Shown here: positions 82-63,307 of the stretch, piece by piece | Layout: every line of letters begins with the position of its first letter | Position numbering within the stretch: position 1 is the first letter of the stretch | Origin: Letharia columbiana | Lineage: Eukaryota > Ascomycota > Lecanoromycetes > Lecanorales > Parmeliaceae | Length of the DNA: 64,000 nt | Direction of reading: 5' to 3' | Assembly: GCF_014066305.1 (NCBI RefSeq) | Contig: NW_023501129.1 | Coordinates: 1-64,000 of the forward strand | Notes under the pieces: model-generated | Databases searched by the model: none | What the model was told of the DNA's origin: nothing | The model's input: only the letters and a program-made list of their open reading frames with translations | Position numbers and translations under genes: made by a program

Positions 82-453
82 CTACATGGGAGGTACGTGC
101 ACTCCCTGTGTCTTTTTCTTTTCCTTTACCTTTTTATGTGAATCAGGGTAAATATATGAAGTATCCGGCCCAGGGCCACCTCCACTAGGTTCTTGTTGAG
201 GTCCTGACCCTGGGCCGCTGGAATTGCCTTTATCATTAGAATCACTCTTTTTAACTTGTATGAAATAATCATCAATTAGGTGCGAAATCATACTGTAAAG
301 TACGAGAAGTAAAAGTATAAATACAAATAACAATAATAAACAAACACAAGTATAAAGTGAAAATAATAGAGGATGTTTTTTATAAAAACTTTTGTTTACA
401 ATAGTAATATATGTTAGTATGGAAATTATAAAAAACGGTAAGTGTATTGTCAT
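82..453 (-). CDS. Hypothetical membrane ORF with Gly/Pro-rich linker (123 aa)
   Basis: I do not recognise this family. The protein has two hydrophobic stretches, at about residues 5-20 and 33-58. A charged patch and a Gly/Pro/Ser-rich linker (about residues 70-98) follow, and the tail is Lys-rich. It starts at an ATG and ends at TAG. In the next frame, bases 1 to about 115 read openly as protein-like sequence (containing VILAEEYAQEADKLY). The true product may therefore have been longer and been shifted in the A-rich run near base 115. Membrane segment plus Gly-rich linker plus C-terminal part is the same layout as the extension on cox1 at the other end of the window. It lies 28 bases downstream of another membrane ORF. 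Confidence 0.5.
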   Translation of the reverse strand: MTIHLPFFIISILTYITIVNKSFYKKHPLLFSLYTCVCLLLLFVFILLLLVLYSMISHLIDDYFIQVKKSDSNDKGNSSGPGSGPQQEPSGGGPGPDTSYIYPDSHKKVKEKKKTQGVHVPPM

Positions 454-481
454 ATATACTAGTGATATAATTAATCAAAAG

Positions 482-817
482 TTATAACCCTAAATAGGTT
501 TGGTAAAGACAAATACATTGAAGCGCAACCATATAATATAGGTTACGCTGTATATAACAGGTTGTCTCATAGTGTATCAATGTGGCCAGCTGATTTAATA
601 GGGGAAAAAAACCCCCTTTGTAGTAAGTGCTATTAAGAGTTTTATAATAAGTGGTAGAAGTAAATGTGAAAATCATAATACTTTGTATTTTTTCAAATAC
701 AACACTTAATAAACCATTTATTGGTGACATAATTAGTATGACAATGGATCTTACTAAATTAATTAAAGTGAGCAGATATAGAATTATATCTGTAAAGATC
801 TCACGAATGTTATTCAT
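482..817 (-). CDS. Hypothetical membrane ORF (111 aa)
   Basis: Open frame from ATG to TAA with no recognisable family. About residues 12-32 are strongly hydrophobic and the rest is mixed and Tyr/Thr-rich. Its first 34 bases overlap the 3' end of the upstream ORF 784-1080 in another frame. It is followed 28 bases later by the membrane ORF at 82-453, so the three could be one transcription unit. It could also be a frameshifted continuation of ORF 784-1080. Nothing beyond frame length and hydrophobicity supports it. Confidence 0.35.
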   Translation of the reverse strand: MNNIREIFTDIILYLLTLINLVRSIVILIMSPINGLLSVVFEKIQSIMIFTFTSTTYYKTLNSTYYKGGFFPLLNQLATLIHYETTCYIQRNLYYMVALQCICLYQTYLGL

Positions 818-1080
818 AGTTGAATAAGGTTTATAGCTTTGTCAGCTGTTCTTGTCTTATTTATATAATAAAAATTACTAGTATAATCAGTTAACCGCAA
901 TAATAGTATAAGTATAAAACTAAGATGCAATGAGAAATAATTTCAGCCTAAAATATAATAAGAGATGAAATACAAAAAGGAGCCTAGTAGCAAAAGTAAC
1001 AGTAAAGATTGTATTGTTTTTTCACGTCTAAATGTGACGGCATTAGATAATAATAAAAATAAAAGTGAATAAGTAATCAT
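784..1080 (-). CDS. Hypothetical membrane ORF, nad2-like N-terminus (98 aa)
   Basis: Two TGA codons must be read as Trp to obtain this 98-residue frame. The first 20 residues (containing LLLSNAVTFRRE) remind me of the amino end of fungal Nad2, which is hydrophobic and then carries an RR(D/E) motif. The next about 60 residues are Leu-rich membrane segments that I cannot align to Nad2 from memory. It may be a broken or chimeric copy that uses a nad2 start, or the resemblance may be chance. It overlaps the next ORF downstream. Confidence 0.35.
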
Positions 1081-1421
1081 TGTTTTTGGAGGGTTCAAAC
1101 CTACCTTACATTTTCCCTTAGTTAGTGCCTAATCTATATTTAGTTTAGTTTTTATAAACTAAAGGGTCATGTTTCATAATCGCAACCAATTAATAAGATA
1201 TTGTTACATTGTCATATATGACAATGTAAAAAAAATTATAAAAGATTGCATTAAATGCTAGCTGGGACCTAAACTTATATTCCTAATTTTTAAATTAAAT
1301 TTTCGTCCTGTTTAAAGAAAAATTACCATTTTTTTAACTTATTTTACCCATTTAATAAATTATTAACCTTTAAACAAACCCCCCTTAATTTATAAAATTA
1401 AAAAGGTTGGCTGGGTTACTT
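1081..1421. other. AT-rich spacer
   Basis: No convincing gene is seen. The stretch is mostly A and T, with several homopolymer runs near 1440-1500 that continue into the end of the neighbouring GIY-YIG ORF. A short GC-richer patch at 1086-1110 resembles a T-arm but lacks matching acceptor and anticodon arms. Confidence 0.5.
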
Positions 1422-26900: not shown

Positions 26901-28103
26901 CAAAGAGATGAAATTTACTATTAGTATTAGGTTGTAAATGGTTGTTTAATCTTCTTTTAAATAAAGTAGTTCTACCTATATAGTATACTAGACAATTATA
27001 TTTATATTCTATAAGATATATACAACTAAGAGATCCTCATTTTTTTACAAGTTCAGACCTCTTCTTTATATCATTATAAGTAACTAAAACTTTATCATCA
27101 AAAGGTTTTGCAATAGCATTTCTATCTTTGTATAGATCTTTTATATAAAGATTATGTAGTGGCTTTAATTCCTCAATGTTTAAACTTTTTTTTCCTTTTT
27201 AGTTGCGCAAGCAATACCTTCAATTTTAGTTGAATAATATCTTTTACCTACTGGATTAGGCTTGCCCACTATATAGAATATACTAAAAAGTCTATAAGTA
27301 GGTATATAAGTAGTAGATTGAATCAAAACCTTAGAGTTGAAGGCTTTGTTACCCTTAATAACAAAAAATAAAAGAGTCGGGTCTATAGTAGCGTTATTTA
27401 AATTTGTAGCTAATACACTAGATAATTTAGGCTTAGCCTTTAAACTTGATAATAAAATAAAATTTTTAAGATTTTGGGCGCTCGTGGTAAAGTTATCGAC
27501 TTCTCTTGAGTCTCATCTACTAGTCGTTGAGTATTTAAAGTTTAATCAATAGTTTATTAAAAGAATTAAAACTATTTCATACCTTATATTAACAAAATAT
27601 GTTAAGAAAATTAAACTAGACTTTTCTTCAAGTTGACTTTGAAAGTTTCAAAACGTTTCTTGAAATTCACCCAATGTTTTACTTATTACTCACGTAATAA
27701 GGGGACTAATCGTTAATCCTGCTAATAATATACCATAAGTAGATAAGGAAGAAACTGCTAACATATATAGTATTCCTAAATCAAAGTCTGATATAGCTAG
27801 ACCAGGACCATATGGTATAACAGAAAATCCTAACAAGGAAAAGATTAAAGTTATGATAGGTCCAAGAAAAAATAAAACTAAATTAGCTTGTGTGGGGGAA
27901 ACATATTCTTTTAAAAGAAGCTTTAAGGCATCTGCAAACGCCTGTAATAAACCGTAATATCCTACTATGTTAGGACCTAATCTTCTTTGCATACTTGCCA
28001 TTGTTTTTCTCTCTGCAACCGTAACATAGGCCACAGTTAATAATACTGGCACGGTTACTATTACAACTTCTATAACAGATATAAAGATAGGTGAATATAA
28101 CAT
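23986..28103 (-). CDS. nad1: NADH dehydrogenase subunit 1, three exons
   Basis: Nad1 joins the membrane and quinone-binding parts of complex I. Exon A (28103 to about 27719) has [36 protein letters not shown] and [20 protein letters not shown]. Exon B (about 25842-25593) has [20 protein letters not shown] and [12 protein letters not shown]. Exon C (about 24447-23986) has [38 protein letters not shown] and ends NVFLL then TAG. Both introns carry GIY-YIG ORFs. Exon A is duplicated, with its upstream tRNA, at 30424-31210. Splice points were set by the protein pattern and may be off by a few bases. Confidence 0.93.
24482..25420 (-). pseudogene. GIY-YIG/NUMOD ORF in nad1 intron 2, degenerate
   Basis: The domain reads [37 protein letters not shown], a stop (TAG) before [11 protein letters not shown], then NHSMYG and, after an insertion, NUMOD3-like [20 protein letters not shown] and a NUMOD1 tail ([19 protein letters not shown]). 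The hairpin repeat CTCAACTTCGTTAGCAA is inserted twice. At 25076-25098 it is in frame (VANEVEHH). At 24768-24790 it brings a stop and separates the C-terminal part. It is a HEG that has been invaded by repeats. Confidence 0.7.
26044..27719 (-). pseudogene. GIY-YIG/NUMOD ORF in nad1 intron 1, in frame with exon A, one frameshift
   Basis: The reading frame of nad1 exon A continues without a stop into the intron for about 175 codons, as intron HEGs often do. It ends in TAA after a run of eight A (27186-27193 on the complement). In the next frame the protein goes on: [20 protein letters not shown] (GIY-YIG), [16 protein letters not shown], then several NUMOD1-like repeats, ending LYLFSK and TAA at 26044. 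One added A in the run would join both parts. It may be a real frameshift, slippage, or a sequencing error in a homopolymer. Confidence 0.7.
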
Positions 28104-28492
28104 GGTATTAATAATAAAACATATAATATCTCATCAAAAATAAAGCAACCAACTTAAAAACTTTTTCTCACCTAGATATAAATTAAAGATAGAAGTAAAC
28201 TAATATTTTATTAGTTTTTGGGTCTAGCGATAACGCTTCTTGCTCATCCTTTCTGATTTTTCACATGAAAAAACAGAAAAGAATAAACATGGCGCAAGAA
28301 GCATATACTACAATAACAACTAAAATGTTGTAAATGGAACAGGAGAACTATTTATTATTAGTATATATATTTGTAAAAAAGTGAGCAAGGAAATAAGGAA
28401 ATAATGGGTGACGATAAACATTACGTATACAAAAGCAACTCTATGGTTTATCATGAAGATTAGTGATACATATGAACTATAAACAAACTTGT

Positions 28493-29631: not shown

Positions 29632-30822
29632 TTAATTAGCTCGATGCAAAGTATGTTTTAATATACCTTGAAATATATAATTGACAGCTTCCTCATGATG
29701 CTGAACATGTCATATATCGCCTATTCTTGACTTGTTCTCATCATCATCAATATATAATGGTCTAGATTGCGATAAGTCAAGGCCTTCATATCTTAAAGGT
29801 AAAACTTTATCTCAAGTAACATCCACTGCATCATTTGTTAATGGTATTTTGAAGAATGCTATTTCTCTACCAACGGCTACAATAACAAAACCACCATATT
29901 GTCCATTAGGGTCCGCATAGCCTCTTCTTAAGTAAATAGCTGCGGTTACCTGATCCAGAGCTTTAAAAAAGCTCTCAAATGGTCTTTTAGACTCAACTCA
30001 TAAAAAATCGAAAGGATCCTCTGCTAACCTTTCATTAATATAGCTGAGTGTAAAGTCTGGTTTTCTTCTACCAGGACCGGGGAATTCATGGGTTCAAGAT
30101 TGGGGAGCTATAATAAAACCTGCAGGTACCCTCTCGCCCTCATGAAATTCGTCGCGTTGCCATGGAAAATGGTAGGTTAATATCCCATTCATATAACAAT
30201 CTACTCTATCTTCCAAGGAAGGATGCCTATGATCGGTATCATCTACCAAAGCTATTGCTTGACTTATAGATATTAAGTCAATATAGCTACTCCTACTCTG
30301 TAATGGTAAGCTCACAAAAGAATAAGGGTTCGGTGGAGAAACTATAAATAGATAAGCGAATACACTTATAATATATATTGCTCAATTAATAGTTAAAAAA
30401 ACATACTTTCCTAAATGAAGGGTTCAGGTACATGGAAACGCATATAACAGGGCACAAGCCGAGAAGTAAAAAAGTGCTAACGTATAAAGTATTCCTAAAT
30501 CAAAGTCTGATATACTTAGACCAGGACCATATGGTATAACAGAAAATCCTAACAAGGAAAAGATTAAAGTTATGATAGGTCCAAGAAAAAATAAAACTAA
30601 ATTAGCTTGTGTGGGAAAAACATATTCTTTTAAAAGAAGCTTTAAGGCATCTGCAAACGCCTGTAATAAACCGTAATATCCTATTATGTTAGGACCTAAT
30701 CTTCTTTGCATACTTGCCATTGTTTTTCTCTCTGCAACCGTAACATAAGCCACGGTTAACAGTACAGGCACGGTTAATATTATGACTTCTATAATAGATA
30801 TAAATATAGGTAAATATAACAT
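29632..30822 (-). CDS. Chimeric ORF: nad1 5' copy + cox1 tail signature + PD-(D/E)XK-like domain (396 aa)
   Basis: One uninterrupted frame with TGA read as Trp. Residues 1 to about 115 are a near-identical copy of Nad1 exon A. Residues about 116-165 are unrelated membrane segments. SPPNPYSFVSLPLQS (about residues 160-174) is the characteristic C-terminal signature of Cox1. The rest is a soluble domain with GPGRRKPDFTL (about residues 249-259) and, about 22 residues later, WVESKRP. That spacing and pattern fit the PD-(D/E)XK nuclease superfamily, with E-x-K as the catalytic pair, followed by an ALDQ helix. The upstream leader and tRNA are copied from nad1. Function is unknown; the nuclease call is inference from motifs. 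Confidence 0.75.
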
Positions 30823-31139
30823 GATATTAAAAATAAAATATAAAATATCTCATGAGAAAGAAAGATAATCATATGAACTTAAAAACTTTTTCTCATAATA
30901 ATATAAAATAAAAATAGAAGTAAACTAGGATTTTGTTAATTTTAGGGTGTGATTCTGCTACGATAACAATTATATTGTTATAGATTGAACAGAAAAACTA
31001 TTTATTATTAGTATATATCTTTGTAAAAAAGGAAACAAGTTATAACAATAGACAAAAAGCCATTATGTGTACAAAAGTAACTTTATGATTTATCATAAAG
31101 AAAATATTAGTAATACATGTAAACTAGAAACAAACTTGA
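30823..31139 (-). repeat. Duplicated nad1 leader
   Basis: Corresponds to 28104-28492 with substitutions and indels (shared blocks ACTTAAAAACTTTTTCTCA, AGAAGTAAACTA and ACTATTTATTATTAGTATAT). The duplicated unit runs from the tRNA-Arg(CCU) through the leader into nad1 exon A. Confidence 0.7.
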
Positions 31140-31210
31140 ATTCTTATCTAGGACTTGAACTTAGATCTAAATATTAGGAATATTCTGCTCTACCATTGAG
31201 CTAATAAGAA
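31140..31210 (-). tRNA. trnR: tRNA-Arg-like, anticodon CCU, copy near chimeric ORF
   Basis: Same structure as 28493-28563, with anticodon stem GAATA/TATTT around TTCCTAA. The T-loop is TTCAAGT. It belongs to the duplicated nad1 leader unit. Confidence 0.65.
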
Positions 31211-31284
31211 TATAATAAATTAGCATTTTCCTCTTAATACTAACCTATACTATTTACTTTTTCACAATAACATAAATGTATGAT

Positions 31285-31320
31285 GCCTTGTGAGATGCTC
31301 AACTCCGTTAGCAAATCACA
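31285..31320. repeat. Small hairpin repeat (GTTAGC/GCTAAC family)
   Basis: GATGCTCAACTCCGTTAGCAAATC; further copies at 31843-31870, 36910-36945, 25076-25098, 24768-24790 and 15958-15984. GCTCAAC and GTTAGC flank a three-base TTC/TCC loop. The copy at 31843 sits in TGTGTGAGATGCTCAACTTC, and that longer context recurs at 36905. Confidence 0.65.
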
Positions 31321-35647: not shown

Positions 35648-38163
35648 TGCAAATCTACCACTAATTAACCCGTATTTTGGTTAAAGAGGGTACTTCTTCC
35701 TGAGTATAAATAGCAATATTTATACCCTTTTAACAAAGAACATTACATATATAAGCGGTTCTTCTGCATCTTTTCAGGTGGGGTTTGACTATATCTTAAG
35801 CTTGCGCCAACCAACTTTTAGTCGATGAACTGCACACCATTTACGTATAAATGGTGCTTGGCTGCGGATTGCCCATATTCTTAATTAAATAAGTTATCAA
35901 TTTCGATTTTACCGTACCACGAGTCATTACCTGTGCCACCAGAGTATTACTAGCCTGGTTTGGTTGAAATTGCTTTAGGGATTTCCCGCAATTTGAAGGT
36001 TTTGAGCCGAAGGTTCACTTCGACTATGGCCTCAGACCATAAAATGTTCCTTCTCTGTTAATCATAACAGAAACTTGATTTAATCTTCCAGGATAGGCGT
36101 CACATTTAATACCTAAAGCAGGGCAAGCAAAAGAATGGATAACGTCAGCACCTGTAACTATAAATCTAACATGAGTTAGTTCTGGTATAATAAGTCTATT
36201 ATCCACTTCTAACATTCTTAAAGCACCGTCTTCTAAGTCAGATTCAGGCACTAAATATGAATCAAATTCAATAAACTCATCATCACTATTTAAAAAATCA
36301 GGATATTGGTAGCTTCAGTATCATTGGTGCGGAAGTTTTTAAACAACCTTTCGACTGTACATTAAGCATCATAGATATACATCTAAAACACCCACAAGTG
36401 ACCCAGTCTGTTGCAACAGACATAAAAAAATAAATTGTCTACTGACAGTCTTGTATTCTTAATAGATATCGGATAAAAATAAGATATTAACTGTTTTCAC
36501 TCATGTCGCCAAAGAGAAAAATCTTTTTCTCTTTAAGATCCCCGTCGGGATCTTAGAAATTAATAGATTCAACTTATTGCCTTTTAAAATAAATAACTTT
36601 ATTATGTTTGATGCCCATTATTCGCAATCGCAACACTTAAAGAGATAAAAGCAATAAAGAGCACTAACTAAGGCTCAATTAAGCTAGTGGTCTATATTCT
36701 ACCCCTTATTCTACCCTATTCTCCAACATAAAAATTATGTTTACTTAAACCGGATTGAATAAAAAAAATAAATATAAACATATCAATTAAGATCACGACT
36801 ATTACATATATGTGAGGGGATTAAAAGAACTTATACTTTATTGCTTTTGTGTTGCTATTGCGGTTGTGCGAAGCACATCAGCATGAGTATAACCTTGTTT
36901 TTGCTTGTGTGTGTGAGATGCTCAACTTCGTTAGCAAATCACATGACATGGCATCAGTAACTATAAACCTAATTTATAGCGCATACTAGGTATAACAAAG
37001 GGTAAGATCAATTTTCTTAGCTTTAATACTGATTCACCTTTAATATATATTGAAGATTGGCGAGGTGTATTAATCTTTTGAACGGTACAACTTAAATAAA
37101 AGAGTTTTTTTAACAAATTAGCTAAAAGTTGCACTTCTTCTAATTTAAAACTATTGCTTGATATTCTAACCCCTGGCTTAGCTCAGCCACCATCATCCAT
37201 GATCCAAATTGCTAAAGCTAAGGGTGTCAAATATTGCTCTAGCTTAACACTAAGCGTTTTTGTACCTTTTTTGTAAAACAGTTTGTATATTCAATTAAAA
37301 CTTCTGAAAGTAAAGGTATTAAACTCATAACCGTAGTACTCTTTAATTTCGTTAGATATTTTATTCCGTAGTTTTCTAGTGTACATTCTAGGTTTTAAAT
37401 TGGAACAATAACCTCTTTTGTAATAAAATTCATACAATCAAAATAAATAGTCTTTATGTACTTGACTTTGTTTATAAGAAAATCTAGTACCTTCTAGAGT
37501 TCTTGCACTAGCATAGGAATCACCCAATAATGAACCAATAAGAACGGATATTACTTCCTCATTATGTGGTCCTATTCTATTAGAAGCCTTAACTTTAGTA
37601 TGAAATGTTTTCTTGAAATAAACAGGCTTAGTTAAAAAAGTAGTAAAGTTATGTTTTGTATATCTGGTGATGCTCATGTTTGGCAATTGCAACAAAAAGC
37701 TTGTACTTTGGACTTGAGCTAGTCTAGGTACTAAAGTATTATTTTTTTCACCAGTACGGTTTGACATAGGTAGTCAAACCGTTAAACTGGTATCTTTTAT
37801 TTTATTTAATATATGTAATTTAAGGCCACCCGTAAAGAAACCTTCTGCTAACACTGCCATAGCTGGATCACTTACTTCATCCATTAAATATAACAATTTA
37901 AAAGATGGAAAAGCGATTAAAATTAATATTAAGGCAGGTGTAATAGTTCATATTAGCTCGATCAATGTTCCATGACTTAAATATTTATGTGAAATTGGTG
38001 ACTCTGTATTAGTATAGTTTTTAACTATTGATATTAATAATCATCCTACCCCAAATAATATTATAACTAAATAGAACAATATATTATCATGTAACTCCAC
38101 TAAACCTTCCATTTGTGGTGTTGCACTATCTTGAAAATATATACCTCAAGGTCTAGGTGCATC
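35551..38163 (-). CDS. cox2: Cytochrome c oxidase subunit 2, three exons
   Basis: Cox2 carries the CuA centre of complex IV. Exon 1 (about 38163-37840) starts [20 protein letters not shown] and ends [10 protein letters not shown]. Exon 2 (36329-36036) starts HQWYWSYQYPDF and has [20 protein letters not shown] and [16 protein letters not shown]. Exon 3 (about 35650-35551) has [16 protein letters not shown] and ends SWLQEQ. The CuA ligands (His in VIHSFA; Cys, Cys and His in [11 protein letters not shown]) are present. Intron 1 holds a LAGLIDADG ORF; intron 2 (about 385 bases) has none. There is no stop between cob and this gene: cob reads in frame through a linker into cox2. Internal ATG codons (MSYMSYMSY) just before DAPRPW could give a separate start. 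Confidence 0.93.
36961..37840 (-). CDS. LAGLIDADG endonuclease in cox2 intron 1, fused to exon 1
   Basis: The cox2 exon 1 frame continues into the intron with no stop. LAGLIDADG motif 1 is [11 protein letters not shown] and motif 2 is [13 protein letters not shown]; both keep the acidic residue. Between and after them are [13 protein letters not shown] and [13 protein letters not shown] segments, ending MRYKLGL then TAG. Such fused products are usually processed to release a homing endonuclease or maturase. Downstream of it is a group I core (36330-36560, AATGTACAGTCGAAAGG-type on the complement). Confidence 0.85.
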
Positions 38164-38766
38164 ACAATATGACATATATGACATATATGACATAGGTAAA
38201 GCTGCAAAAACGAAAACGATACTTGCACAATATAATAAGAGAATTATGCTTGTAATAATAAGAATTACTTTTTTAACTATAATAGGATTGTCTTTGCTAG
38301 ATCCAACCTCAGATGATCCACCTCCACCAACAGATGATCCGCCGTTACCGTTATCTCCTTTATCATTACCTTTTTTATCGTCGGAGTTTTGATAAGCCTT
38401 AACAGGTGCGACGGGATTAGGTGCGCCTTTTGCTACCTCTACTATACTAACAGCAGAATAAGGGTTATTACCTTGTAGCCATTCTGCTACAGCTGTAGGT
38501 CTGTCACGCCATGGATCTATTCCCAAATGGCGAAGAGGCATTATATGTGAATTTATATGCATGCCCGTGTTGGTATGATATGTAGTTATAATTCCCGTAA
38601 AAGGATCTATCCAGCAAGTAGTGTTATTGTTATGAATTGCACGTATGAATCGTACACTCCTCTCCATAATATAATCAGAGGCAGGAGCATTTAATTTAGG
38701 AGAAGGGAAGAATCCTGATTGCACCTGTACCAAATCTAATTTAGATAACACGTAGCTGTTATTATA
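38160..38766 (-). other. In-frame linker joining cob to cox2
   Basis: After the usual Cob end ([10 protein letters not shown]) the frame goes on for about 200 residues to Cox2 DAPRPWG, with no stop of any kind. The linker holds a His/Trp/Asp-containing segment ([20 protein letters not shown], then [16 protein letters not shown]), a Gly/Ser/Asn-rich stretch ([18 protein letters not shown]), one membrane helix ([20 protein letters not shown]) and three ATG-led MSY repeats. I recognise no family. Whether the product stays fused, is cleaved, or cox2 is started internally is unknown. Confidence 0.8.
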
Positions 38767-41700
38767 TGATTTTGTAGATAATTCTATTAAACTATTCTCA
38801 AATAAACTTATTAAAGGAACTATAATCAAAAAATGTGCGAAATAGATAACTGTAGATATTTGTCCAAATTCTATAAATGGAGATTCCACGTGTTTAGCAC
38901 CTAATTCCATTAATATTAAAAAGTTACCAACAAATATAAAAAAGGCTGCTTTGCTTAAAGGTTTAAATTGTATACCTCTGGATCTAGAAAGATCAGTGAA
39001 AGGCATAACTAATAAAATTAATATAGCAGAAAACATGGCGATAACACCTAACAGTTTATTAGGTATAGATCTAAGTATAGCATAAAATGGTAAAAGATCA
39101 AAAAAAAAATTTTTAACATGCGAATTAAAATTGTACATTCTTAATTCGCAAATGACAGGCTTATAAACCCAGCTTATATAACATTTCTTTTATGAAAAAC
39201 GGATTGACTAATAATATCAAACTGTCCATCGATTCTTTAAATATATAAATACGGGGTTTATTGTCCCTGTTATAATGTATAGAACATTTAAGTTTAAACT
39301 TATCTTGTAGAGTAAACATAAGTTTGTCTACATCTGTATTAGAAAAAGCATAAACACTAATATGTAAGCCAGCTCCATGACGGCTTCCGTCATCCATTAT
39401 TCAAAAGGCTAGTCCTCTAGCAGTCAAAATATTATGGATATTATCTGGCACCTTTTTTACATTTAAAAGATAAAACATTTCTCTATATAGATTAAAACAA
39501 GGTAGCTGCATAGTTGTAAAAGAGATAGCACTATATGTCTTTTTAGTCCTATTGTCTCTAACCACTCTAGACTGGGGTATATAACCGCTAACACAAAAAG
39601 GTTTAAATATACTATATACATAGTTAAAATACTCCTTGTGTGCTATGGCTGTCTGAGCGTATACCAATCTAGAATTACCAGTCTGAGATCTTTTTGCTAT
39701 GTGACCGTCACCGAGCATAATACCCACCAATATATCCTTTATATCACTAGGTAGAATTATAACAACTCTTTCAGCAGCAGATAAACGTATAATACCTTTT
39801 GTTGAACGAGCCACATAACACAATGAGCCAGTACATAAAGGTATGCTGAGTATATGATCATGTTGATAAATATATACATATATTTATGCATCATATCACT
39901 ACAATGATTGGACTATATCTTAATAATAAAAATTACCATAAATAATTTTTATTATATCTTGCGTATAGTCTCTGAAGACCCTATTAAATAGTAAATTATT
40001 AGGTTTCCTGCTGATTGTCTAGATATATTTAGGTATATAAGAGTTTCCAGCATATAGCAAGATTAAGTGACATCTTTTTATCACTCGGGTACTATAGCAG
40101 GAGGAGTTTGCATAGGATTAGCCATTACATAGTTTTCACTATCACCTAAAAGGTTAGGCATAAAAAACACAAACATTGACAACACTAAGATGAAAATAAA
40201 GATAGTAATTAGATCTTTAAATATAAAGTAGGGGGCAAATGGCAATCTATCATAATTACCTGAAACACCCAAAGGATTACCTGAACCAGCACTATCATGC
40301 AGTGCTATTAAATGCATTAAAGCTAATGCAGCTAATACAAAAGGTAAAACAAAATGTAATGCAAAAAATCTATTTAATGTGGCATTGTTTACACTGAAAC
40401 CGCCCCAGATAAATTCGACTATGTCTTGTCCAACTCACGGTATGGCACTCATAAGGCTAGTTATAACTGTAGCGCCTCATAATGACATTTGCCCATAGGG
40501 AAGAACATACAAGTATACTTAATATAAACTGTAAGTTATCTATAAAAAGCTAGAATAACTTTGAATTCATTTATTCTATTAGTCTATGAGAACTAAATAC
40601 CCCGACTGTGCATTAAGCATCATTTCAGACACCCATCAGTGACCCAGTCTGTCGCGGTCATTATAAGAACCGACGATCTCTAACTTAATAATATAGCCGG
40701 CTATCTAGTTAACTTTACACTAGATAACAAGATTAAAAGTTCTTTGATCGTTTTCACTAATATCGCCTAAGAAAAAGCATTTCTTAAATACCCCTGACGG
40801 GTTATTCCACTTTAATTTTTATTTTTTTTATAAAATTGCATAAAATTTTATACTCATGGGACTATGGTTTAAATTAAACAATGATTGAATAAACAACAAT
40901 TCAATTTGTAGGAAAGGGGCAGTTAAATAAACAAGAAAGTAATGCCAATTGGCATTAGGGTGTAATTTTATCTTGTTAAAAATTTAATAATTCAATGCCT
41001 TTTTAATCTTTTCTTAGGTGTGTTCATAGCTATTCATATAGTTATTACACTACACCTTAATGACTTAGCCCCGGGCGTAATACTAGGGTATTCGCCATAT
41101 ACAGTTTTATTTAAGTTATATACTATTATGGGTTTAGAGGATTTTGTCATATTAACTAAGCTTTCCTTGGAGTAGGCAGGCTTTTTACGAGTTAAAGCAG
41201 CTGCTTTTATCTTTGCCTTGTGTTGTTCACTGATTACTTTACCTCTATTTAGATCACCTCTTTTTAAACGACGCTTTGAGCTGTAATTCTCTACCATTTT
41301 TATCCTAGTTATTTCGGAGTGTTTAGAGGCAAAAGTATTTCCAGCTTCAGTCACTATATTATAATCAGGGAATAAATATTTCAAATAATAATCCTCCAAG
41401 TTTAACAACTCCTTATTGTTTTATTTAGTAACGATTTTAGGGAATACATGTAATATCATAAAAGCAAAATTGTTTCTTTTATGCTTTCTTACTGCAGCTT
41501 TTACTATCTTGTTGCGAAGCATACCAGTGAAATTAAATAAATGCTTACGGAATCTAGCATTGAATTTGTTTGTGGAAGCAGATCCTACATAACAGCTTAA
41601 GTTAATTTTATTCAAAATTAAGTATACACCGGCAATATCCCTAGTATCGTTTAACACTTTATCTTGAGTTGACTTTTCGTTTAGACTTTCATAAATGTAA

Positions 41701-53730: not shown

Positions 53731-54618
53731 TTAGCCATCTGGATCAAAGATATCCATAGGCTCACTTTGTTGCTGATTACTAAGGTATTCATCTGTTTCA
53801 TCTCTTTTACGCCTTTTTTCTTCTTTCTCCAAACGCATTTCTTCATCTATTCCCAAACGCTTGAGTTTTAGCTCATAACTCATTCGTTTAATGGCAGATT
53901 CGTAATCTTTTTTACCAACCTCCAGAGAAGAATCTTCTTTCTTCTCTAACACATTATTATCTATAGAAGATTTCATTAAAGCATCTCATTCTCTATTGTA
54001 TTCTTTTTTAGTATTTAGAACGGCTGAATCATCATCAGGTAAACCTTTAACTTCATGCGCTTGCATATCTATAGCGAATTGTGCCTTAAGATCTGCCATG
54101 ATATCCTTAACTTCACCTAATTTCCTGTCTTTACTATCCTCCCCAGAGAGATATTCATTGTATAAACTATAAGATTTTTTACTCTTCATAATTTCATTAT
54201 ACTTCTTCTCTGTATCTTGTTGACACTTATGGACACGGTTCTCTCACGTTTTAGCATTGCGTATGTCTAACCTTTTCTGCTTATCAACACGAGGAGGACG
54301 AGGGCCAGCTTTACTTATGGTAGTAGAAAACAGCCTAGCATCTTTTTTTATCGGATTATGAGTTAGATGCTTCGCAACTGGTAATTCACTTTTTAATGCA
54401 AGAGATACGCTAAAATTAGGTTTGGGTATGTTGTTTATTGCATTCAGCGTATTGTTTATATAAAGGGATTTGTATGTGTTGTATGTAATTAGAAAATTTT
54501 TCATTCGTTGTGTGATATTAAATAGAACTTTGCGGTTATATAACCTTTGTGTTGTTCTTAACTTAACTTTTAGGCCCTTTTTACTTTTGTTATTTATTAA
54601 GAATAAAAAAGAACACAT
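53731..54618 (-). CDS. Chimeric ORF: rps3 5' copy + charged coiled-coil-like domain (295 aa)
   Basis: Frame with two TGA as Trp. About residues 1-72 (MCSFLFLINNKSKKGLKVKL to NAINNIPKPNF) match the rps3 N-terminus almost perfectly. The rest is new: an RLFSTTISKAGPRPP stretch that looks like a mitochondrial presequence, then a highly charged Lys/Glu-rich region likely to form coiled coil (KLKRLGIDEEMRLEKEEKRR), ending QQQSEPMDIFDPDG. No family is recognised. It is preceded by about 360 bases copied from upstream of rps3. No ribosomal S3 core is present, so it cannot replace Rps3. Confidence 0.7.
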
Positions 54619-55175: not shown

Positions 55176-56855
55176 TTAACTACTACTTACCCATCCTTTT
55201 AGACCAAAAGATCCAATACGTATTCTAGATTTTAATTTAGTATATTGTAAATTAGATTTTGCATAACCTCTTAGAAGAACTGCCGATAAACCTTTATAAG
55301 AAGAATCCATGTTTTTTATATTACCTTTATACCTAAGTTTAAATAGAGATCTCTCGGCTGTATTACGTCTAGTTAATCTACCCGCTGCCTCTAACCTTAT
55401 ACCACTTACAGATTTATTTCTAATAGATTTTAAAATGGTATTTACTATAAATAATGGATAATCACAATAGATTAAATTTTGAGGTCGATATAATTTAAAA
55501 TCTTTTAGTTTAGATATAGAATCTTTAGGATCTGTATTTAACAACGACCGTTCTAATAGATCACTAAATTGTGATTTAACCTTGGATTTCAAACTTATAA
55601 CCCTAGTCGTTGTATTATCAACTTTTAAACTTTGAAGCTTCCTTTTTCTATTATAAATTTCTTCGTATAAAGCTGATCTATCCACAAAGGGTAGTTTAAA
55701 CATTAATAAAGAAGTTTTCAAGACTCTTAATAACCTATTTTCTCTATTTCTTATTTTTGTAACTAAAGTTTCTGAAAAAATATAGCTGTTAAGGTATAGA
55801 TATTTTAAATTTACAAGATTAAATTCTACTTTTTTATTATAGACCTTTCTTACTAAACTAGTTATAGGTAAAAGATATCTTTTTTCAAATTTAGATTCAT
55901 TAAAAGATACTAATTGTCAAAGATAAATAGATAGCATTTCCTTACGTAGAGATCTGGTAACATAATGTTTCAAATAACTTGTCTCATAGTTTTTAAACTT
56001 ATTATTATCTGCCTTATTTTTATTTGAAGATAATAAACCAAGCGTTCTTCAAACTATTTCTTTTTGCTTTTTAACTCTCGATCTAATCTTTAAGCTTTTT
56101 TTTTTAATTATTTTTATTTTAATTGTATTAGGAAGGAGATTCTTTATTGTGCCTATCCTAATTATTTTATTAAAATAATATTTTTTTTGTCTGTTATAAA
56201 CATATATAGTAACAACCACTTTGTCATTTGTATGTTTCAACTCTGCTCTACTAATTAGTATCCTATTAGTTGATAACCTTCTTCCTCTTATACGCAAACG
56301 TCGAGATTTTATTTTTTTCTCTAGTTTACGGCTATAAAAGTTAAAATAACTTTTAACTAGTTTAAGTGTAACTTTGTCTAAAGTGGGTAATGACTTAATT
56401 GTGTTATTATTATATACGTATATACTATTAAATCACTCCTTATTTGCAGGTGGATAGTGTCTAGGTTTCCCTATATAATTATAGTTTTTTTCTGACTTTA
56501 CTTTTTGTTGCGATTGCAGAGGATCAGCATCATTGTATTTTTTTAACCTTGCATTAAACACGTTTAACATGTCAGTAGAGCTATTATAAGTATTAGTTAG
56601 ATGATTCGCAACTGATCATTCACTTTTTAATGCATAATAAACAAGGAAATTAGGTTTGGGTATGTTGTTTATTGCATTTAGCGTATTGTTTATATAAAGG
56701 GATTTGTATGTGTTGTTGTATGTAATTAAAAAATTTTTCATTCGTTGTGTGATATTAAATAGAACTTTGCGGTTATATAACCTTTGTGTTGTTCTTAACT
56801 TAACTTTTAGGCCCTTTTTACTTTTGTTATTTATTAAGAATAAAAAAGAACACAT
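55176..56855 (-). CDS. rps3: Ribosomal protein S3 (559 aa)
   Basis: Mitochondrially encoded small-subunit ribosomal protein of fungi. The N-terminal 350 residues are Lys/Asn/Tyr-rich and poorly conserved, as usual. The C-terminal core has VSGIRLEAAGRLTRRNTAER, LFKLRYKGNIKNMDSSYKG, LLRGYAKSNLQYTKLKSRIR and IGSFGLKGWVSS before a stop, the standard fungal Rps3 end. Two TGA codons are Trp. The start is the ATG at 56855; its first about 75 codons and upstream region are duplicated at 54380-54985. Confidence 0.92.
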
Positions 56856-61372: not shown

Positions 61373-63252
<1,880 letters not shown>

Positions 63253-63307
63253 TATATAAGGTAATTAATATAAGTTGTGGACTATATCTTTACCAGTAAT
63301 AAATATG

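Follow-up and report, generated by a model that had tools for sequence, protein, structure and literature searches.

How did a single open frame come to join the start of one respiratory gene, the end of another and a domain with nuclease-like motifs, and where did that domain stand before? The locus raising this question lies in a window of 64,000 nucleotides, bases 1–64000 of contig C94 (109,691 bp), from an assembly of 52.2 Mb in 161 contigs. Judged by its gene content, C94 is a fungal mitochondrial genome, with rRNAs, tRNAs, group I introns and, mainly on the minus strand, nad, cox, cob and rps3 genes; its mitochondrial genes use TGA for Trp. The ends of the contig overlap, its first 19,166 bases matching the last 19,187 at 99%, and the molecule is therefore probably a circle of ca. 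90.5 kb whose assembly has errors close to the contig ends. Elsewhere in the window, frame reading pointed to frames resembling the DNA and RNA polymerase genes of an integrated linear plasmid (47831–53669, plus strand). The end of cob and the start of cox2 lie within one open frame (36961–39177, minus strand), separated by ca. 200 residues of uncharacterised sequence and with a LAGLIDADG intron ORF at the end.

A four-part ORF ahead of nad1

The frame runs on the minus strand from an ATG at 30822 to a stop at 29632; it stays open up to 30906 without a further ATG (424 aa), and the plus strand across it is stop-rich. The initial annotation had described a chimera of a Nad1 N-terminus, a Cox1 tail and a domain with KPDF and VESK motifs, and we indeed found these in an intact frame of 396 codons. 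It consists of four parts, all on the minus strand: a copy of the nad1 start (30460–30822, 121 codons), a hydrophobic linker of 40 codons (30340–30459), the Cox1 C-terminal tail SPPNPYSFVSLPLQS (30295–30339) and a domain of 220 aa, a putative PD-(D/E)XK nuclease (29635–30294). Alignment with relatives places the KPDF motif at 30052–30063 and the E-S-K of VESK at 29986–29994. A Pfam scan returned NADHdh in front (4.5e-33) and nothing above cut-off behind it. The same protein is found in an independent record, P0001, from a contig of 88,745 bp: only two of the 396 residues differ, both in the nad1 part, and the domain is identical.

The frame is broken in C110, another contig of this assembly, whose first 1323 bases begin within the chimeric ORF. 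We considered a decayed second gene copy (a pseudogene), and rejected it because these bases are 98.8% identical (8 mismatches, 7 gaps), so that the breaks are better read as contig-end errors. The 52 Mb assembly contains no nuclear copy of the 220-aa domain at E ≤ 10.

The nad1 part derives from the gene that it precedes, since DNA comparison aligns 27742–28223 (minus strand), comprising upstream bases and the start of exon 1 of the real nad1, with 30461–30948 at 90.2% over 489 columns. Further upstream, 28308–28641 matches its copy at 30958–31287 (minus strand), which includes a tRNA-Arg(cct) at 31138–31211, at 82% over 342 columns. The copy stands directly ahead of the real nad1. Differences between the two are unevenly spread: the middle 85 codons hold no silent and three amino acid differences, against seven silent and nine amino acid differences in the preceding 37 codons (Fisher test, p = 0.00015, a value that overstates the evidence for gene conversion because the boundary was picked post hoc). 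This pattern fits a recent gene conversion with nad1, in which case the duplication may predate the age implied by its best-matching part.

The linker is partly conserved in another relative of the ORF, P0003 (see below), with 12 of 20 residues alike in the best stretch and a score reached by 2 of 5000 shuffles. Sequence comparison gave no significant match of the linker to cox1 or nad1, and its origin as a decayed Cox1 helix was unsupported (4342 of 5000 shuffles reach the score).

Relatives of the 220-aa domain

Three protein searches yielded five relatives of the domain, P0001 among them. P0003, from a different contig (71,501 bp), has the same succession of nad1 copy, tail and domain, the latter 75% identical; P0002 contains the tail and the domain without nad1 (64% identity), and P0004 is a fragment of 107 aa (65% identity). 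In P0005, the last part of a real Cox1 is followed by the tail and then by the domain, within one protein that has the Cox1 Pfam domain, and the similarity, at 29% identity, covers 96% of the query (E 1.1e-23). It had been predicted that the same domain would follow the Cox1 tail in other fungal mitochondrial DNAs, as it does in P0005, P0003 and P0002, and that it once sat behind cox1, for which P0005 provides a precedent, with the domain directly behind the last exon of a real cox1 and the tail. P0005 is also the only one in which the domain is in frame with the end of a respiratory gene and carries that same end; in the window ORF, a tail from cox1 is preceded by a copied nad1 start instead. 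No relative of the domain appeared in the viral contigs or genome contigs scanned, nor in plasmids (using P0002 as query). The start of P0002 was also compared with Cox1 as a possible decayed helix, without significance (921 of 5000 shuffles reach the score).

The ORF might be a neutral fossil, that is, gene pieces joined by mitochondrial DNA recombination into a frame that is open merely because it is young. The assembly indeed holds several other copied gene starts and fragments, and within the converted middle part of the nad1 copy, all three differences alter amino acids. Additionally, both P0003 and P0004 are truncated, lacking the end of the domain, which suggests that decay may be common. 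Nevertheless, P0003 has the same build of nad1 copy, tail and domain despite a domain identity of just 75%, and all five relatives, one of them at 29% identity, retain the motif residues, which is unexpected for a decaying frame. We thus consider a fossil unlikely.

A probable PD-(D/E)XK domain

The initial annotation had assigned the domain to the PD-(D/E)XK nucleases, and conservation of the motif makes this plausible while database searches lend it no support. Both the PD and the ExK are kept in the five relatives, as KPDF or RPDF and as VESK, VECK, VEDK or CEAK, with the caveat that the ExK of P0005 is placed by one alignment, three others putting a gap inside it and missing it. KPDF and VESK are separated by a D-to-E spacing of 21 residues (25 in P0005), and an upstream EDRV occurs in four of the five relatives, with QDRV in P0004. 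By eye, the order of elements is a helix with EDRV, a strand with PDF, a strand ending in ExK, a helix with Gln and a further strand, which we take to fit the architecture of the PD-(D/E)XK family.

Sequence and profile searches against Pfam, NCBIfam, PADLOC and PDB chains gave no significant nuclease match for the domain. The best sub-threshold hits were to MS_channel_TM1 (Pfam, E 0.01 and 0.037, below cut-off) and to PDB entries with E values of 0.48 to 1.1. The fold is left unconfirmed by two poor AlphaFold models (mean pLDDT 41.9 and 44.6), and Foldseek with the second of them returned 0 of 240 matches at E ≤ 0.001, a list that is not interpretable. Away from its mitochondrial contigs, the assembly has two matches to the fungal family PDDEXK_12 (PF20516); for the one nuclear gene compared, similarity to the domain was not significant (hhalign probability 0.1; 3134 of 5000 shuffles reach the pairwise score). 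A cox1 intron LAGLIDADG ORF of the same genome (L007:1632–4028, equivalent to C94:65632–68028, minus strand) has a long C-terminal part with SDLQI...IVENKA, which by eye is PD-(D/E)XK-like; only LAGLIDADG families match this ORF, and its similarity to the nad1-linked domain is not significant (z 2.2).

From the retention of PD and ExK in every relative found, we consider it likely that the domain belongs to the PD-(D/E)XK nucleases, and give less credit to its having nuclease activity. Four of the five Trp codons within the domain are TGA, indicating that it is adapted to mitochondria. About four hydrophobic stretches precede it in the chimeric ORF and may hold it across the membrane from the mitochondrial DNA: with the topology that we presume for Nad1, the domain could face the intermembrane space, provided that it is not released by cleavage and that all of these stretches span the membrane.

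The Cox1 tail

The assignment of SPPNPYSFVSLPLQS to Cox1 is robust, because none of 2000 shuffles reached its score against the canonical Cox1 tail. In three of the four alignments with PDB Cox1 chains shown, the tail ends one residue short of the chain end (537/538, 534/535 and 529/530), and in the fourth, 7jro, at 518 of 527. The cox1 of the window has its own tail of 15 residues at 62789–62833 (minus strand), located from the reading frame and by comparison. A core F-x-S-L-P-L-Q-S at the join is common to the window ORF, P0003, P0002, P0005 and the cox1 of the window.

In the chimeric ORF, the tail may be a mere scar. A different proposal is that it is an active peptide: it could mark a protease boundary at which the cargo is freed from Cox1, from the Nad1 copy or from Nad5, or it could act as a decoy that engages the factors sensing the end of Cox1. 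Truncation of yeast Cox1 by its final 15 residues is described as abolishing the feedback control of Cox1 synthesis (PMC10132202), and a regulatory peptide of the same length makes an active role a serious alternative to a scar. The core retained at the join in those five sequences, with close forms occurring twice in a nad5 fusion (see below), points in the same direction. Nonetheless, the sequences are few, and the tails of the window ORF and P0003, with 11 of 15 residues alike, change at about the same rate as the domain (75%), so that we find an active tail rather improbable and prefer the scar.

Different cargos behind the same tail

The chimeric ORF is not an isolated case in this mitochondrial DNA. 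The last exon of cox1 in the window (61373–63271, minus strand, from frames and Pfam) continues in frame into a different extension of ca. 470 aa, in which a stretch GGxITTLxMNxDN recurs in P0006 (a weak match, E 0.005). A second ORF of the same build (53731–54618, minus strand) joins a copy of the rps3 start (88 aa, 91%) to a cargo; the real rps3 lies at 55176–56855 on the minus strand (VAR1, 7.2e-12). Almost the whole of this rps3-linked cargo can be aligned with extensions that follow cox1 in P0015 (z 11.8) and P0020 (z 11.3; 60 shuffles each). From these alignments and from P0005, it follows that two cargos of this genome, the nuclease-like and the rps3-linked one, occur in other genomes as extensions of cox1. 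Outside the window, the nad5 frame (C94:80698–84120, minus strand) continues past the gene into the two Cox1-tail-like motifs mentioned above, a piece of 66 bases matching the start of cox1 at 64 positions and, after a Gly-rich linker, a cargo. Frame reading also revealed a copy of the nad2 start with hydrophobic segments behind it and then a cargo preceded by a Pro/Gly-rich linker (C94:89885–91636, the same as window 82–1098, minus strand), whose frame is broken at the contig start but open at the other end. The G+C content of the cargo parts is 0.36–0.37, compared to 0.26 for rps3 and 0.29–0.35 for those nad and cox genes for which it was calculated. No second copy of the cargos of cox1, the rps3 copy and nad5 was found in the assembly at E ≤ 0.01.

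Two further sequences are worth recording. A cox1 intron remnant (C94:64458–65249, minus strand) comprises a nad2 fragment, then CLPKAHAFTKITL, which resembles a degraded Cox1 tail, and then a soluble cargo. In P0007, the last part of the cox1 extension is rich in Cys (CDCCRGNQERCNCDC, CCNCGTALYHKWC) and by eye looks like a zinc finger.

Among the matches listed, the tail is present in 26 of 27 proteins, and 23 of the 26 run on beyond it for at least 76 residues; an all-against-all comparison (E ≤ 1e-3) sorts the 24 extensions of more than 20 aa into 17 groups. These counts come from a biased set, because the query contained the tail and 22 of the matches have E values of 0.07 to 9.8 and short coverage, mainly over the tail. 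Even with this bias, the sequences indicate that unlike cargos stand behind the same Cox1 tail. The other tail-borne cargos scanned have no nuclease domain in Pfam, and homing may therefore not explain the whole pattern.

A larger system may lie behind the chimeric ORF. The end of cox1 in such fungi could be a slot for swappable cargos, placed exactly behind the 15-residue tail and exchanged between genomes, with displaced ones kept on copied nad1, rps3 or nad2 starts or at the end of nad5; the tail would then be a portable processing or assembly peptide, and the PD-(D/E)XK protein one cargo of a mitochondrial cassette system. We offer this broader scheme tentatively, as a possibility that we doubt more than we believe.

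Plant cytoplasmic male sterility ORFs consist of a copied gene start with an extra domain and hydrophobic stretches. The chimeric ORF has this build, a copy of a mitochondrial gene start joined to foreign hydrophobic or soluble sequence, and could by analogy encode a membrane protein made of pieces of respiratory genes and harmful to mitochondria, or to matings, in which a nuclear restorer is missing; the wide variation of the extensions behind the Cox1 tail would suit such an incompatibility or sterility-like gene. The same build is, however, expected from plain recombination too, and we hold this role to be very unlikely.

Origin of the chimeric ORF

By a slight preference over all other explanations together, we favour the view that the chimeric ORF is a relocated cox1 extension, a probable PD-(D/E)XK nuclease gene that moved from the end of cox1 to a position behind copied nad1 sequence. 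This gene would first have been appended in frame to cox1, in an ancestor or donor, as in P0005. Recombination would then have attached the last 15 cox1 codons and the nuclease, via the linker, to a copied nad1 upstream region with its start codon and first membrane segments, placing the fusion just ahead of the nad1 gene proper. Signals for mitochondrial translation could come from the copied start, as suggested by gene-specific activation in yeast, where activators are described as acting on 5′ UTRs (PMC12450462). The nuclease, free or released by proteolysis, would most likely act, or have acted, as a mobility enzyme that cuts element-free mitochondrial DNA near the 3′ end of cox1; repair would copy in the tail and the nuclease, and the tail would restore cox1, as in known mobile mitochondrial ORFs. 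At the nad1 position, the tail would survive as a scar, while the gene would be a selfish copy that was displaced or else have been retained for another use. The selfish or incompatibility role proposed in the initial annotation is conjecture, as is DNA cleavage by the putative nuclease.

The tail is the one feature that suggests the direction of the move, from cox1 to the nad1 copy. Relocation gains from the second relocated cox1 extension, behind the copied rps3 start. Against it stand the nuclease reading, which comes without a structure or family match, and the piece copied at nad1, which is a gene start whereas known mobile ORFs carry a gene end.

Comparison with known systems

If relocation and the wider scheme hold, fungal mitochondria bear a moving set of cargo genes attached to the respiratory gene that is most conserved, and one of these cargos can be traced through its history, first at the end of cox1 and later after a copied start of nad1. 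This would add a nuclease type beyond those in the descriptions of mobile mitochondrial ORFs consulted (PMC3630166), and make the capture of translation signals by such ORFs testable. There is also a warning for annotation, in that records named ‘cox1’, ‘nad5’ or ‘truncated nad1’ may conceal extra proteins. Among the open-access papers listed by our searches, there was no report of a nad1–tail–domain chimera or of swapped cox1 extensions.

The chimera had been called a new kind of gene. That is too strong, because mobile mitochondrial ORFs carrying host-gene C-termini are already described for atp6 of Allomyces and for atp6, atp9, cox2 and nad3 of Glomus sp. (PMC3630166). As in those accounts, a nuclease-type ORF lies in frame with a respiratory gene (there atp6 and nad3) and brings a copy of its C-terminal part. 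The mobile ORF described for atp6 is a LAGLIDADG ORF with the displaced native C-terminus downstream (PMC3630166), whereas here a PD-(D/E)XK-like domain stands behind a copied nad1 start. At nad1 there is no displaced native C-terminus downstream, the copied part being the start, ahead of the real nad1 exon. A further contrast with the mobile ORFs as described (PMC3630166) is that the tail position is also used here by cargos without a recognised nuclease domain. In a basidiomycete mitochondrial DNA there are likewise in-frame extensions at the ends of respiratory genes, presented as putatively non-translated and, unlike here, with no relocation or shared tail reported in the description.

For the domain, one parallel is I-Ssp6803I, a PD-(D/E)XK homing endonuclease encoded by an intron ORF of a cyanobacterium. 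With such enzymes the domain shares the type of catalytic motif and differs in having no sequence match among PDB sequences; the PD-(D/E)XK type is listed as one of six homing endonuclease families (PMC6083498). By eye, it is also like the fungal PDDEXK_12 (PF20516) in the order of ExK, Gln helix and next strand, a likeness that is not significant for the one gene compared. Finally, the ORF resembles the plant cytoplasmic male sterility ORFs in setting a copied mitochondrial gene start on foreign sequence with hydrophobic segments, but its cargo, in contrast to theirs, is nuclease-like and can be traced to a place behind cox1 in another genome.
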